A program made the translations under genes and the position numbers. Positions 41,322-51,235 of a DNA stretch of 64,000 bases are shown piece by piece. Under the pieces are notes generated by a model. The model did not search any database, was not told where the DNA came from, and saw only the letters and a program-made list of their open reading frames with translations. The first letter of the stretch is position 1. Each line of letters opens with the position of its first letter. Source of the stretch: Neisseriaceae bacterium TC5R-5 (GTDB lineage Bacteria; Pseudomonadota; Gammaproteobacteria; Burkholderiales; Chromobacteriaceae); NCBI GenBank assembly GCA_020830965.2, contig JACCFC020000008.1, positions 31,344 through 95,343 of the forward strand, given 5' to 3'.

Positions 41322-43478
41322 ATGGCTGCCGGCATAGAGGAAGAGGTTGACTACCAGGCCTTGGTCCAGAACGCTGCCGTGGCATTTTTTGAGGCTGCTG
41401 GAACTTACCTTAAACCAGAAGATGTGCAGTTATTGCGTTCTGTGTTTGAGGTTAGCAAAGACGCTCATCAAGGTCAGATCCGTAAAAGTGGAGAGCCTTA
41501 TATTACCCACCCCCTCGCCGTTGCTACTATGTTGGCAGAGTGGCGATTGGATGTTCAGGGTTTGGCTGCCGCTTTATTGCATGATGTTTTGGAAGATACC
41601 GGCGTCACTAAGCCTGCGCTTATAGAAAAATTTGGTAAGACTATTGCCGACTTAGTTGATGGCCTGTCGAAATTGGAGCGACTAGAGTATCAAACCAGAG
41701 AGACGGCTCAGGCAGAGAGCTTTCGTAAAATGGTACTGGCCATGGCCAGAGACATTCGGGTCATCCTTGTAAAGCTGGCAGATCGTTTGCACAATATGCG
41801 GACGCTAGACTCAATGCGCGAAGCTAAGCGCCAACGTATTGCTTTGGAAACGCTGGAAATATACGCTCCCATAGCTAATAGGATTGGCCTAAACAAGGTT
41901 TATCGTGAATTGCAGGACTTGGCTTTTAGTCATTTGAATCCTCATCGTTATAATGTCTTGTCTAAAGCTGTGCGTGCAGCTCGAGGTAATCGGCGTGAGC
42001 TTGTGACTAAAATTTTACAGTCGGTTAGTCAGAAGCTGGTGCAGGGCAATATTGAAGCAACTATTAAGGGTCGCGAAAAAAATCTTTATAGCATATACAA
42101 GAAAATGCAAGAAAAGCATTTGTCTTTTTCTGAAGTGTTGGACATATATGGCTTTAGAGTTGTAGTTAATGATGTATCAAGTTGTTATCTGGCTTTGGGG
42201 GCCTTGCATAGTTTGTATAAGCCAATCCCCGGTAAATTCAAAGACTACATCGCTATTCCAAAAGGTAATGGCTATCAAAGTCTGCATACTACTTTGTTTG
42301 GGCCATATGGCACGCCTGTTGAGATGCAAATCCGTACCCGGGAAATGAATAGTGTCGCAGAAGCTGGTGTGGCATCGCATTGGATGTATAAAAGTGGTGA
42401 CGGGATCAATACCGCTCAGCAGCGCACTCACCAATGGCTGCAAAAAATTCTTGATATGCAGGAAGAAAGCGACGATCCAGTTGAGTTTCTTGAGCATATC
42501 AAAATTGATCTGTTTCCAGATGAGGTCTATGTTTTTACCCCTAAAGGCAAAATCATGGTTATGCCTCAGGGTGCTACCCCCGTTGATTTCGCCTATGCCG
42601 TGCACACTGATGTTGGGCATCGTTGTATTGCTGCGAGGGTTAACCATGCTCTTGTGCCTTTACGTACGGTATTACGCAATGGTGATACTGTTGAAATTAT
42701 TACCTCTACTCGCGCTAAACCTAATCCCTCATGGCTTACTTTTGTACAGAGTGGGCGAGCCCGTTCCGGTATTCGTAACTACCTGAAAGGACTGCAGCAA
42801 GAAGAGGCTATTGGACTGGGGGAGAAACTACTGAAACAGGCTATGGGCGCGCTGGCAGAGACTTCGCTAGCTTTGAGTGATGCTCTGTGGGTTGAGTATA
42901 TTCAGGCCCATGGTGAGCGCTTGTTGTCTTCTCGCGAGGTGTTGGCTGAGATTGGCGCTGGTAGACTGATGCCGATAGTTGTTGCTCGCCGTTTGCTGGA
43001 GTTGGCTGGCGAGCGTTTGGGTGAAGAGGTTAAAGTTGGGCCGGTGGTTATTCGCGGCAATGAAGGTGGGATGGTGCAATTATCTCCATGCTGTAACCCT
43101 TTGCCCGGTGATGATATTTTGGGCGTGATTATGAAGGGGCAAGGCTTGGTTATCCATCGTGCTTCCTGCGCTAATGCACGAAGAGCGGATCATGATAAAT
43201 TGCTGGAGGTAAATTGGGAGTCTCAGCGTGATCGAATGTTTGGCGTTACTGTGGCTGTTCTGTCACGTAATGAGCGGGGTGCGCTAGCGGATATCGCAGC
43301 GGCGATTTCGGAGGCTTCTGCCAATATCGAAAGTGCAGATACTCAAGAGAGTAGTCGTGATGGGGATGGCTTGTTCAATATTCATTTCCGCTTGCAGGTG
43401 GAGTGCGTTGAGCATTTGGAAAGAGTGTTGTCGGCTATTCGGCGGCTGCCGGTAGTGCAACGAGTGCAACGGAGATGA
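41322..43478 (+). CDS. spoT: Bifunctional (p)ppGpp synthetase/hydrolase SpoT
   Basis: A 718-residue RelA/SpoT homologue. The hydrolase HD motif HDVLEDT is intact (about residues 89–95), followed by the synthetase domain with EVLDIYGFRVVV and KGNGYQSLHT, a TGS domain (about 390–450, VFTPKGKIMVMPQGATPVDFAY) and a C-terminal ACT domain (about 640–715). Both catalytic halves look functional. It synthesises and degrades the stringent-response alarmone. It overlaps thiS by a few bases only if an earlier thiS start is used. Confidence 0.96.
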   Translation: MAAGIEEEVDYQALVQNAAVAFFEAAGTYLKPEDVQLLRSVFEVSKDAHQGQIRKSGEPYITHPLAVATMLAEWRLDVQGLAAALLHDVLEDTGVTKPALIEKFGKTIADLVDGLSKLERLEYQTRETAQAESFRKMVLAMARDIRVILVKLADRLHNMRTLDSMREAKRQRIALETLEIYAPIANRIGLNKVYRELQDLAFSHLNPHRYNVLSKAVRAARGNRRELVTKILQSVSQKLVQGNIEATIKGREKNLYSIYKKMQEKHLSFSEVLDIYGFRVVVNDVSSCYLALGALHSLYKPIPGKFKDYIAIPKGNGYQSLHTTLFGPYGTPVEMQIRTREMNSVAEAGVASHWMYKSGDGINTAQQRTHQWLQKILDMQEESDDPVEFLEHIKIDLFPDEVYVFTPKGKIMVMPQGATPVDFAYAVHTDVGHRCIAARVNHALVPLRTVLRNGDTVEIITSTRAKPNPSWLTFVQSGRARSGIRNYLKGLQQEEAIGLGEKLLKQAMGALAETSLALSDALWVEYIQAHGERLLSSREVLAEIGAGRLMPIVVARRLLELAGERLGEEVKVGPVVIRGNEGGMVQLSPCCNPLPGDDILGVIMKGQGLVIHRASCANARRADHDKLLEVNWESQRDRMFGVTVAVLSRNERGALADIAAAISEASANIESADTQESSRDGDGLFNIHFRLQVECVEHLERVLSAIRRLPVVQRVQRR

Positions 43479-47332: not shown

Positions 47333-47405
47333 GGTGGCTTAGGCAGATATCACGTGGTTGTATTTAATCAACTGTTTTTTCGGCTTATTTCAAGCAGGAA
47401 GCGAA

Positions 47406-49331
47406 ATGGCGACCTCTCCCGACAATCAAGAAGACGTACAAAATAATGAACAGGATATAGTAATCAGTTTAGATGATCAGCGTAAGCGCTTACGTCAACT
47501 GATTGCCCTGGGCAAAGAGCGTGGATATTTAACCTACGCAGAAATTAATGACCATCTACCGGAAGATGTGTCCGATGCTGAGCAGATAGAAAACATTGTT
47601 ACGATGATTTCTGGCTTAGGCATTCAGGTCTCTGATGAGGCTCCCGATGCCGATGCTTTGCTGATGTCGGATGCCACTCCGCCTGTTGCTGATGAGGATG
47701 CAGTAGAGGAGGCCGAGGCTGCACTGTCTTCGGTCGATTCTGAGTTTGGCCGTACGACCGATCCTGTGCGCATGTATATGCGTGAAATGGGTTCGGTCGA
47801 GTTGCTGACTCGGGAAGGCGAGATTGAAATTGCCAAGCGGATCGAGGATGGGCTCAAGTACATGATTCAGGCTATCTCAGTTTGTCCAGGGACAATTGCT
47901 GAGGTTTTAGAGTTGCTTGAGCGAGTCAGTCGTGATGAGTTGCGTATTGATGAGGTGTTGGACGGCTTCATCGATTTAAGTGAGCCTGCTGAGCCAGAAG
48001 CGCCCTTTGTCGAGCCGGAGATCGATGAGTTACTCGACGAAGACGACGAAGATGACGTAGAAGAAGAGGAAGTTGATGCAGAGGCTGAGTCAGCGGCTAA
48101 CTTGGAGGAGCTCAAGCAAAAAGCATTAGAGCATTTTGCTGGCGTGCGCATGCTGTTCGACAAAATGTGCAAAGTGCTACATGGTAAGGGTGCGCAAAGT
48201 AAAGAGTATTTGGCTTTGCAGGATGCCATCACTACTGAGTTTATGCTGGTGCGGTTTGCTACTCGTCAGGTGGAAAGTCTTTGTGATTCCTTACGTTCCC
48301 GCGTGAATGAAGTGCGCACGCATGAGCGTAGTATTCAGGATATCTGTGTTAGCCGTGTTCGTATGGATCGTGCCTATTTTATCAAAGTGTTCCCTGGCAA
48401 CGAGACCAATCTAGAATGGGTCGAGGATGAAATCCATGCCGGGCAGCCTTGGAGTGAAGCGCTAACCCGCTTTAAATATGCCATCATTGAAAAGCAGAGC
48501 AAGCTGTTTGAATTGCAGAACAATGCGATGCTACCGATCAAGGCGCTGAAAGAAATTAATCGTCAGATGTCTTCCGGCGAATCCAAAGCGCGGCGGGCCA
48601 AGAAGGAAATGATTGAGGCTAACCTGCGCCTGGTTATCTCCATCGCCAAGAAATATACCAATCGTGGTTTGCAGTTCTTGGACTTGATTCAGGAAGGCAA
48701 TATTGGTTTGATGAAGGCGGTGGATAAGTTTGAGTATCGTCGAGGCTATAAGTTTTCAACTTATGCTACTTGGTGGATACGGCAGGCAATTACCCGTTCT
48801 ATTGCAGATCAGGCACGCACTATCCGCATCCCGGTGCACATGATCGAAACCATCAATAAGATGAATCGTATCAGTCGCCAAATTTTGCAAGAAACAGGGC
48901 ATGAACCTGATCCGGCGGAATTGGCGGAAAAAATGGAGATGCCGGAAGACAAGATCCGTAAAATCATGAAGATTTCCAAAGAGCCTATCTCTATGGAAAC
49001 GCCTATTGGTGACGATGATGACTCCCACTTGGGGGACTTCATTGAGGATCAGAATAATCTGGCCCCTTCTGAAGCGGCAATGTATTCCAGCTTGAAAGAT
49101 GCTACCAAAGAAGTGCTGGATACGCTCACGCCAAGAGAGGCCAAGGTATTGCGTATGCGTTTTGGTATTGATATGAACACAGACCATACCTTGGAGGAAG
49201 TGGGTAAGCAGTTTGATGTGACGCGTGAGCGCATTCGGCAGATTGAGGCGAAGGCATTACGTAAGTTGCGACATCCCACGCGTTCTGAGCGTCTGCGTAG
49301 TTTCTTGGATAACGAGCCTAGTACTCCTTAG
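47406..49331 (+). CDS. rpoD: RNA polymerase sigma factor RpoD (sigma70)
   Basis: The housekeeping sigma factor, 641 residues. Region 1.1 opens with [26 protein letters not shown]. An acidic linker ([17 protein letters not shown], about residues 206–222) lies in the non-conserved region. Region 2 has [20 protein letters not shown], region 3 has [14 protein letters not shown], and region 4 ends in [19 protein letters not shown]. The start at 47406 follows AGGAAG. It ends the macromolecular synthesis operon. Confidence 0.98.
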
Positions 49332-49411: not shown

Positions 49412-49694
49412 GGGCCTCTAGCTCATGCTTGGTTAGAGCAGCGGACTCATAAAAATTGTGCCTTATGTTTGGAAACTGCATAAGGGATGGTGTCAAATTC
49501 GGTGAAACCTAAGCACAGAGATGTGTATGGCAATGCCGAGCCAAGCTTCAGTGGAACAATACTGTTGAAGGTGTAGAGACTAGACGGCACCCACCTAAGG
49601 CAATAGCTAAGGTGAAGGCATAGTCCAGGGAGTGATGAAAGTCACACAAACCAGAATCCGTTGGTGCCGAGTTCGACTCTCGGGGGGCCCACCA
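49412..49694 (+). tRNA. tRNA-Ile (CAU) interrupted by a group I intron
   Basis: Exon 1 is 49412–49450 and exon 2 is 49655–49694. Joined, they form a 79-nt tRNA with acceptor stem GGGCCTC/GGGGCCC (one G·U), anticodon loop CTCATAA with CAT, T-arm CCGAG-TTCGACT-CTCGG and an encoded CCA. CAT in this context is the minor tRNA-Ile whose anticodon C is modified to lysidine by TilS and reads AUA. Without intron removal the anticodon loop is not formed. Confidence 0.93.
49451..49654 (+). ncRNA. Azoarcus-type group I intron in tRNA-Ile(CAU)
   Basis: A 204-nt self-splicing intron candidate. The 5' site follows the anticodon CAT, whose bases pair with the internal guide GTG at 49458–49460 with the required U·G at the splice site. 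Conserved core pieces match the 205-nt Azoarcus tRNA-Ile intron (subgroup IC3): GGGATGGTGTCAAATTCGG, GAAACCTAAGC, AGAGACTAGACGGCACCCAC and CATAGTCCAGGGAGTG, with the 3' end CACAAACCAG ending in the terminal G. P2 (CCTTATG/CATAAGG) and other peripheral stems differ in sequence but keep pairing. No endonuclease ORF is present. Confidence 0.95.
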
Positions 49695-49702
49695 AGTTTA
49701 TA

Positions 49703-49735
49703 AAAAGCCAACCTTATTTAAGGTTGGCTTTTGTT
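49703..49735. terminator. Bidirectional terminator after tRNA-Ile
   Basis: AAAAGCCAACCTTA and TAAGGTTGGCTTTT form a 14-bp stem around a short loop. It separates tRNA-Ile from the convergent chemotaxis receptor. Confidence 0.88.
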
Positions 49736-49756: not shown

Positions 49757-51235
49757 TTAATTCTGCGTTGTATTGGGTAATTTGAAATAATCTATTCTGT
49801 TAGCTAATTCCTCGGCTTGCTCGCTCATATTTTGCGCTGTCGCAGACAATTGCTCGGTTGCGATAGCATTAGCTTGCATTGATCGGCTAATTTCACTGAC
49901 ATTTTGATTAATCTGTTCTACTTGCAATGCTTGCTGAGTCGATGACTTGTTAATTTCTTGAATAAAACTCGTGGTATTTTGAATAATGGGTAGCATCTGA
50001 TTGAACAGTAGGCCGGAGTCTTCTGCTACTTTGACGCTGCGCTGAGTGAGTTGTCCGATTTCCTTGGCGGCTGTCTGACTGTGTGCGGCAAGTTTGCGCA
50101 CCTCATTGGCTACAACAGCAAAACCTTTGCCATGTATACCGGCCCGTGCGGCCTCAATAGCTGCATTTAATGCCAGTAGATTGGTTTGGTAGGCAATGTC
50201 ATCAATAATCGAGATTTTTTTGGCAATGTCTCGCATGGCTACCATGGTTTCTGCTGCGGCTTGGTTGCCATTTTCTGCGTGTTGCTGGCTATTGGCTGCC
50301 ATTTTCTCTGTGCTATTGGCGTACTCACGATTTTTCCAAACAAAAGTGGAAATATGTTCCAAATTAACGCTGGTGGTGTCGATATTATGGGCTTGTTCAT
50401 TGGTTTGTTGGCTGATATTGGATACTGCATTGCTGATTTGACTGGCAGCATTGGCCAAATCAAATGAAAAGTAATTAATGTGCTCGATGATGTCGGCAAG
50501 CTTGCATACTTGTTGGCGTGTTGCCTCCGCTAGATCTCCCAATTCGTCATTGCTGTGAAATTGTGGTGGTGCTGTTAAATCTCCATTCGCAATCGCCTGC
50601 ACTGCTAAGCTAATCTCTCCAATTGGTATGCCCACTAAGCGGCGTACCAGTATCGATAGAATAACTAGAATCAATGCATCCAGTACAGCGACCTGTATCA
50701 AGGTGGTCAGTAGGATATTTTTCAGTTTCGCCTTAATGTCAGCATTAGAAAACTGTAGATTGGCTGTGCCTATAGCATGGGAAACACCATCGTTTAAATA
50801 GAATAATGTGATGGTGGCTTGTAGATCGTCTTGCTTAAGCGTGTTGCTGCTTATTAGCTGGCCATCGGGGGTGCGGTGAATGCCAATTATGGGCTTGCCT
50901 TTGGTGTTAGTAACATAAATGCCGCTCGTAAATACGTTTTGCAGCTCTGACTCTAGTACTCGCTGTGCCTGCTGATTGTCAAAGTTCCAGAGCGGATTAG
51001 AAAGATTGGTGATGAGTCGTTGCTTGATATTGGCAATTTCTTTTGATCTGGCTTGTAATAATTCTGTGTGGGTCTGCTGGTAATTAAACGCACCAGAAGT
51101 GGCTAGCAGGCTGGACACTACAACCATAAAAATCAGGTTGAGTTTCTGGCTGATGCTAGTCCGTGGCATAGGCCGCTTGTCCTTGGGTGTTTGCTGAGTC
51201 AGCTGTTTCACTGCACCGAGAAGCCAAGTAAGCAT
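49757..51235 (-). CDS. Methyl-accepting chemotaxis protein
   Basis: A 492-residue receptor. A first transmembrane helix (about residues 32–47) and a second (about 182–205) flank a periplasmic sensor of about 135 residues, followed by a HAMP domain ([15 protein letters not shown] onward) and a cytoplasmic signalling domain. The conserved hairpin tip is [20 protein letters not shown] followed by [20 protein letters not shown], the CheA/CheW contact. The sensor matches no named ligand class I recognise. No CheW-binding pentapeptide for CheR is evident at the C-terminus (LPNTTQN). Monocistronic. Confidence 0.93.

Follow-up and report, generated by a model that had tools for sequence, protein, structure and literature searches.

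A tRNA-Ile(CAU) gene of Neisseriaceae bacterium TC5R-5 is interrupted by 204 nt within its anticodon loop. The locus raises the questions of what kind of insert this is, whether the organism needs its removal to read AUA codons, and why an insert should stand at this place in a tRNA. The gene lies in the window, by which we mean the whole 64,000-nt stretch of contig JACCFC020000008.1 that was analysed.

A group I intron splits the tRNA-Ile(CAU) gene

An earlier note, made from the sequence alone, had described two tRNA halves that join into a tRNA-Ile(CAU) once 204 nt are removed, and had placed the gene between rpoD and a chemotaxis gene. The borders of the halves proved exact, and the locus contains the following features.

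47358..49331, + strand: rpoD, upstream neighbour (start from the list of open reading frames; name from the translation)
49412..49450, + strand: 5′ exon of tRNA-Ile(CAU), 39 nt, ending in CAT (ARAGORN on the joined exons)
49451..49654, + strand: group I intron of the Azoarcus type, 204 nt (RF00028 at 64.5 bits, covariation in 26 sequences, alignment with the Azoarcus ribozyme)
49655..49694, + strand: 3′ exon of tRNA-Ile(CAU) with CCA, 40 nt (ARAGORN on the joined exons)
49703..49732, + strand: terminator-like hairpin with a T-rich tail (one found versus a mean of 0.4 in shuffled sequences, weak when taken alone)
49757-51235, − strand: chemotaxis-receptor-like gene, downstream neighbour (open reading frame; name from the translation)

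The joined exons form a complete cloverleaf in ARAGORN, with the intron located between U36 and A37, directly after the CAU anticodon. The default ARAGORN search did not report the split tRNA of the window; with introns allowed the program called a tRNA(cat) with a 204-nt intron at this locus. The 5′ exon is the same as the 5′ half of the gene in most intronless members of the genus, and the sequence 3′ of the tRNA differs among the eight genus mates viewed. The position between the two protein genes agrees with the open reading frames, both gene names coming from reading of the translations. A scan for consensus promoters found none at the locus, and the genes downstream of the tRNA were not found in the other loci compared, whose 3′ flanks extend over about 1.4 kb at most.

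The group I core suggested in the earlier note was recovered by a covariance search, in which the intron scored 64.5 bits with the Rfam model RF00028 (E 9.1e-16 in the stretch searched), above the gathering threshold of 50. This was the only match to the model in the genome (3.53 Mb searched). The list of open reading frames contains none of at least 100 aa that overlaps the intron, and 204 nt is too short for an endonuclease gene, as had also been claimed.

Covariation supports the intron structure

For the comparative analysis 26 distinct introns were aligned together with 10 nt of each exon; besides the intron of the window the set comprises 25 sequences that are 74 to 89% identical to it. 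The structure was written by hand, with a pseudoknot, and runs from P1 to P9 with P9.0; the register of P3 and P5 was set on the alignment before the pairs were counted. Its elements in the window are these.

49458..49460, + strand: internal guide sequence GTG, forming P1 with 49448-49450 (CAT), with a U.G pair at the 5′ splice site; invariant in 26/26
49461..49485, + strand: P2 stem with a GAAA loop, 49461-49467 paired with 49479-49485; five pairs doubly changed
49489..49494, + strand: 5′ strand of P3, partner 49586-49591; six pairs, 100% paired, invariant
49499..49572, + strand: P4-P5-P6-P6a domain; C-G to G-C switch in P6 in 9/26
49578..49625, + strand: P7 (49578-49582 with 49621-49625), enclosing the 3′ strand of P3 (49586-49591) and P8
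49628..49652, + strand: P9.0 (49628-49629 with 49651-49652) and P9 (GAAA loop); both P9.0 pairs covary
49654..49654, + strand: terminal (omega) G at the 3′ splice site; invariant in 26/26

Standard pairs were present in 97.4% of 1443 cells across the 26 introns, and pairing fell to 22.6-39.7% when the partners were slid against each other. The value of 97.4% leans towards the structure because the structure was fitted to the same 26 sequences. The double-sided changes therefore weigh more as support: they occurred in 23 of the 56 pairs, as compared to a mean of 12.1 after shuffling, and none of the 500 shuffles reached this number. The most telling of them are in both pairs of P9.0, which are the pairs that set the 3′ splice site, in P7, where an A-U pair switches to U-A in 6/26 introns, and in P6. 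The compensating changes proposed earlier for P2 and P6a were also recovered, as five and three doubly changed pairs, respectively. P4 varies on one side only, while P3 never varies, which is no proof of its pairing; hence, both helices are consistent with the structure rather than proven by covariation.

The splice signals named in the earlier note, which were a guide GTG that pairs with the CAT of the anticodon and a terminal G, are present and invariant in all 26 introns. Together with the core found by the covariance model, the U.G pair, guide sequence, P9.0 and terminal G, each invariant or covarying in 26/26, place the insert among the group I introns. The intron of the window has an A as the P8 base before GG, where the other introns of the set have T (19), C (5) or G (1), and as judged by eye it has a U.U mismatch beside the closing pair in L2, which is common to several relatives. 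Both are located outside the catalytic core.

The intron is a close relative of the Azoarcus ribozyme

Alignment with the Azoarcus ribozyme, in the form printed in PMC8890501, showed 154 of 188 comparable bases to be identical, after seven randomised positions and four gap columns had been set aside. This is in agreement with the near-identity of the core pieces noted before. The Azoarcus BH72 intron (IC3) resides in the precursor of the same tRNA-Ile(CAU), with the same GUG guide and the same core, and it differs from that of the window mostly in P2, P5, P6a, L8 and P9. It is inserted at the same site, after U36, and is 205 nt long. The subgroup name IC3 is that used in the title of a reference; it is the insertion after U36 of tRNA-Ile(CAU) together with the sequence relation that assigns the window's intron to the Azoarcus type. 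Cyanobacterial tRNA-Leu(UAA) genes also contain group I introns of subgroup IC3 in the anticodon loop, in another tRNA and at another position than in the window. These data confirm the intron as an unexceptional representative of a well-known type. It adds a natural variant, backed by covariation, to the smallest well-studied self-splicing intron.

The split gene is the only tRNA-Ile(CAU) gene detected

In the genome of the window (G000) 51 tRNA matches were found, of which five are in the window, 36 others were typed, and 10 with lengths of 82-90 nt (class II size) were left untyped. The other tRNAs with a CAU anticodon are one elongator Met tRNA and two initiators, and the genome has a TilS gene that scored above the curated cut-off. 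The reading of the split gene as a tRNA-Met was rejected on account of these separate elongator and initiator tRNAs. The CAU anticodon, the separate Met tRNAs and TilS support its identity as the lysidine type of tRNA-Ile, which the earlier note had given. The determinants of TilS are the acceptor pairs C4-G69 and C5-G68.

No intact tRNA-Ile(CAU) gene was found in this genome either by two sequence patterns or by typing of the tRNAs, in an assembly of 148 contigs and with patterns that would both overlook a copy if its anticodon stem differed. Among the genomes sampled from the order, an intact pattern was present in 311/398, a count that misses genes with other stems, part of the anticodon stem being prescribed in the pattern. 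It was absent from all 10 genomes of the order with a near-full-length match to the window's intron (G000, G023, G090, G243, G263, G284, G289, G296, G437 and G442).

Since no second tRNA-Ile(CAU) was found, splicing is very probably essential for reading AUA in this organism. The sequence of events we infer from general knowledge of group I introns and of TilS. After transcription the pre-tRNA would fold into the P3-P7 pseudoknot, P4-P6 and P9, the GUG guide would pair with CAU, and guanosine would attack after U36. In the second step the 3′-OH of the exon would attack after the terminal G, joining the exons and so forming a CUCAUAA loop, in which TilS would convert C34 to lysidine, so that the tRNA could read AUA.

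A different explanation is that a dead intron lies in a pseudogene and that AUA is read by another tRNA. The gaps of the assembly leave some room for it, and no evidence in its favour was found. It is opposed by the intact core and splice signals, by the match of the 5′ exon to intronless genus mates and by the failure to find another tRNA-Ile(CAU) in the genome, which together make it very improbable. Hence, the insert is almost certainly a self-splicing IC3 intron of the Azoarcus type, which splits the only tRNA-Ile(CAU) gene detected in this genome.

Occurrence in relatives and a second intron in the same loop

The intron was absent from all 18 other genomes of the genus that were sampled, in which the rpoD-linked tRNA with the same type of D loop is present. 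In the window's family the same intron was found in G023, and the 21 named genome loci with the intron motif belong mostly to betaproteobacterial groups. The insertion after U36 was found at the same site in different tRNA backgrounds. A tree of the introns left 19 of 28 inner branches open, with copies from elements and copies outside elements mixed; the use of this tree to separate element-borne from resident copies was rejected because of the open branches.

The same insertion site in different tRNA backgrounds, the mixing of copies in the poorly resolved tree and the lack of the intron in 18/18 genus mates are in line with the intron being a plain passenger. According to this explanation, it is a neutral insertion without an endonuclease, made through reverse splicing or recombination, and the integrative elements described below copied intron-bearing tRNAs of their hosts. 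We regard this as a serious possibility, if one falling somewhat short of an even chance. By itself it predicts neither the enrichment of broken tRNA halves nor the second type of intron in the same role, both of which are presented below.

This second, group-I-like intron of different sequence is inserted between U33 and C34 of tRNA-Ile(CAU) in seven genomes of the family (G020, G029, G032, G036, G041, G053 and G055; loci L060, L061, L034, L036, L069, L086 and L091), with further copies at L138 and L173. RF00028 reported it only in G032 and G036, with 30 and 28.6 bits, below the cut-off, and in the other five genomes it was recognised by its sequence. Thus, a single anticodon loop has received two introns, which differ in sequence and in insertion site.

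Broken tRNA halves precede many intron-bearing tRNAs

Upstream of many intron-bearing tRNAs there is a broken 5′ half of tRNA-Ile that ends in CTCATAA, followed by a spacer of 143-212 nt, with TACACAC repeats in 9/13 cases, and then by the complete tRNA with its intron. The broken half was found before 14/32 tRNAs with the U36 intron as compared to 2/30 intronless controls (p=0.001), and in the sample of the order alone before 4/10 as compared to 2/30 (p=0.026). The count of 14/32 combines 13/29 scored by pattern with three loci scored by eye (L130, L134 and L136, one of the three with a broken half), which do not have the exact motif used in the pattern count. Loci L008 (contig end), L013 (little upstream sequence), L015 (a duplicate of L002) and L194 (short upstream sequence) were left out. 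The controls were the first 30 loci listed from the 311 genomes with the intact pattern, and they come partly from different samples than the intron loci. A narrower pattern gave 13/28 as compared to 1/12 (p=0.03). In a smaller control, where L171 and L174 came from the integrase search and the pattern dropped tRNAs with TTCGAGCC, the broken half was present in 2/26 intronless loci (L108 and L174). All these p values are indicative only, because the samples are uneven in taxa. The broken half also precedes 2/9 tRNAs with the U33 intron, which are L138 and L173, the latter found through the integrase search.

The missing 3′ halves were searched for by pattern in 20 genomes, of which 11 gave matches. 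In 13 of the 20 the intron follows a broken 5′ half, and for seven of these 13 the search located the lone 3′ half at a distant place (G090, G442, G447, G448, G449, G452 and G455), and the pattern search did not find it in six (G023, G450, G451, G453, G454 and G456); the match in G453 was an empty site, and that in G456 belonged to another tRNA. In G457 a 3′ half stands alone, and no broken 5′ half lies close to the intron. In all seven attL/attR pairs the shared att core is 7 to 10 bp long and contains CTCATAA, which is the whole anticodon loop. Brought together, the two halves of each tRNA have acceptor strands that pair at 7/7 positions in six cases and at 6/7 in one. The metagenome-assembled genome G453 has a 1.6-kb contig with an uninterrupted tRNA. 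This contig begins with 69 bases, 38 of which precede the tRNA, that stand unchanged upstream of the break in L009; this is an empty site beside an occupied one in a single such genome. At L173 two broken 5′ halves of tRNA-Ile stand in tandem before the tRNA with the U33 intron, and the second of them resembles a tRNA that one element had brought and another then broke. Upstream of the window's tRNA there is no broken half, and the pattern search of its genome found no lone CATAATC 3′ half.

Probable integrative elements with a replacement tRNA

These layouts look like the work of integrative elements that would break tRNA-Ile(CAU) on entry and supply a replacement, and in relatives of the window they support a link of the intron family to elements attacking the anticodon loop. 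Two such elements were delimited, one of about 10.1 kb in Limnohabitans sp. B9-3 (L012; G449:C17 169.4-179.5 kb) and one of about 32.6 kb in G090 (C1 1303.5-1336.1 kb). Near the tRNA both encode an integrase-like protein of 450-473 aa, which in Limnohabitans matches PF00589 (1.6e-7) and in G090 has no Pfam match and is 56% identical to the Limnohabitans protein. Both also have a second, recombinase-like gene of 190 aa, assigned by PF00589 (7.5e-24) in Limnohabitans and by eye in G090. The Limnohabitans element carries a DUF6641 gene, and the G090 element carries Zorya genes (PADLOC: ZorA 1.7e-214, ZorB 1e-83, ZorC 8.8e-102). No phage was recognised in either element, and a phage origin of the integrase was rejected since no relative was found in IMG/VR (search for close relatives) or among 50,697 phage records. 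Relatives of the integrase at E 1e-40 were found in 13/399 genomes of the order; they adjoin tRNA-Ile, tRNA-Lys, tRNA-Phe or no tRNA, and thus not every member targets tRNA-Ile.

At the window neither att halves nor an adjoining integrase, the marks of a tRNA-dependent element, were found, and at E 1e-40 its genome has no relative of the L012 integrase, a search that covered this integrase family only. With no broken half, lone 3′ half or such integrase, the possibility that the window's copy is still inside an element was not supported.

A similar arrangement is known from phages. Their tRNA-dependent lysogeny likewise involves a tyrosine integrase and a core of about 10 bp at a tRNA gene, and the host tRNA is not rebuilt and the phage brings a tRNA of the same isotype, as is seen here; tRNA-Ile2-CAT is among the reported targets (Guerrero-Bustamante and Hatfull 2024; PMC10865867). 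Unlike those phages, the carriers described here are integrative elements, in mostly betaproteobacterial genomes, and a group I intron often interrupts their replacement tRNA. The word "intron" occurs once in that text as consulted, in the title of a reference, and the same authors speculate that a plasmid-borne tRNA gene may serve as a second attB.

The intron as a possible lock of the attachment site

An explanation we consider as likely to be right as wrong is that the intron disguises the att site, interrupting the 7-bp CTCATAA core in the DNA of a replacement or resident tRNA, with splicing restoring the tRNA. An element that destroys an essential tRNA must replace it, and the loop of the replacement could be hit again. 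An intron at U36/A37 or U33/C34 would split the core in the DNA, and its splicing would restore the loop in the RNA. As tRNA-targeting elements use the loop for their attachment core, an intron placed there would keep the tRNA and remove the target.

This explanation is favored by the excess of broken halves (14/32 versus 2/30), by the presence of CTCATAA in all seven attL/attR cores, by the empty and occupied sites in G453 and by the integrase genes that adjoin the tRNA. It also fits the U33/C34 intron, which stands in the same loop and in the same layout at L138 and L173, and the resemblance of L173 to an element-borne tRNA hit again, as well as an intron-split tRNA-Lys beside the int gene of phage Daredevil, described below. 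On the other hand, the broken half is absent in 18/32 intron carriers, including the window, the lone 3′ half was not found in 6/13 genomes with a broken half, the excess is weaker in the order sample alone (4/10 versus 2/30, p=0.026), and G000 lacks a relative of the L012 integrase at E 1e-40. Moreover, L214 is an intronless replacement with an unchanged stem.

The last case bears on the stems of the replacements. The stem of the replacement equals that of the broken half in 10/13 intron-bearing cases as compared to 1/6 intronless ones, the latter read by eye (p=0.04), which are too few cases to rest on. The generalization that the stem is changed whenever a replacement lacks the intron was rejected by L214. 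The five intronless replacements with changed stems show that the intron is not the only way, and like L214 they speak against a strict rule.

A comparable role was proposed for archaeal tRNA introns: further integration would be blocked by an intron within the att site, also where the element itself had introduced it (Sugahara et al. 2012, PMC3293823; Randau and Soll 2008, as cited in later work). The archaeal introns are spliced by proteins, while the intron studied here is a self-splicing ribozyme in bacteria. Among the matches listed, no open-access paper was found that connects the group I introns of bacteria to elements of this kind, and the word "intron" was not found in the main texts of PMC12429752 and PMC11476347, as far as these were consulted. 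That group I introns in the anticodon loops of bacterial tRNAs act in general as att-site locks, with the window's copy a settled descendant, seems to us an evenly balanced proposition. This protective function is put forward as a hypothesis, drawn from comparison of genomes. If it is true, the lock would block further integration, and it could explain the spread of endonuclease-free tRNA introns such as that of Azoarcus. The wider finding bears on the old question of how introns without a homing endonuclease spread among tRNA genes, and why they are located in anticodon loops.

Intron-like inserts in phage and plasmid tRNA genes

A blastn search with the window's intron matched Gordonia phage Daredevil (L189; NC_048021.1, about 41860-42097) with E 8e-6 and 75.2% identity over half the query. 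The match lies in an unannotated gap beside the integrase gene, where ARAGORN with introns allowed reported a tRNA-Lys(ttt) interrupted by 238 nt, and this insert is group-I-like. The insert scored 15.4 bits with RF00028 (E 0.13), which is not significant, and the case is based on blastn, ARAGORN with introns allowed and the position beside int. Upstream of the split tRNA-Lys the phage has CGGACTTTTAATCCGC, and CGGACTTTTAATCCGC is likely its attP core. According to PMC10865867, Daredevil integrates at tRNA-Lys-TTT and its plaques are clear; it is reported to lack a replacement tRNA, which only its relative Mollymur encodes. The T loop of the Daredevil tRNA-Lys, ATCGAAA, is unusual, and thus this tRNA may not work, which would fit the clear plaques. 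Split tRNAs of this kind escape a default tRNA search, as was the case in the window, in the betaproteobacterial elements and, as it seems, in Daredevil.

Three further loci were observed on plasmids and on a viral contig. Plasmid pB1A of Comamonas aquatica (L191) contains near 100460-100529 a degraded 3′ part of the intron with tRNA sequence, between an IS3 transposase gene and a restriction-modification gene. A plasmid of Tritonibacter mobilis (L192) has near 65320 a group I intron that scored 34.1 bits with RF00028, below the cut-off, in a tRNA called Ile(tat) by ARAGORN, an anticodon assignment that is doubtful. On the viral contig L024 a PP-loop gene is located just upstream of an intron-bearing tRNA-Ile(CAU); its open reading frame, from -704 to -59 relative to the intron, matches ATP_bind_3 in its first 60 aa (E 6.4e-7) and appears TilS-like by eye.
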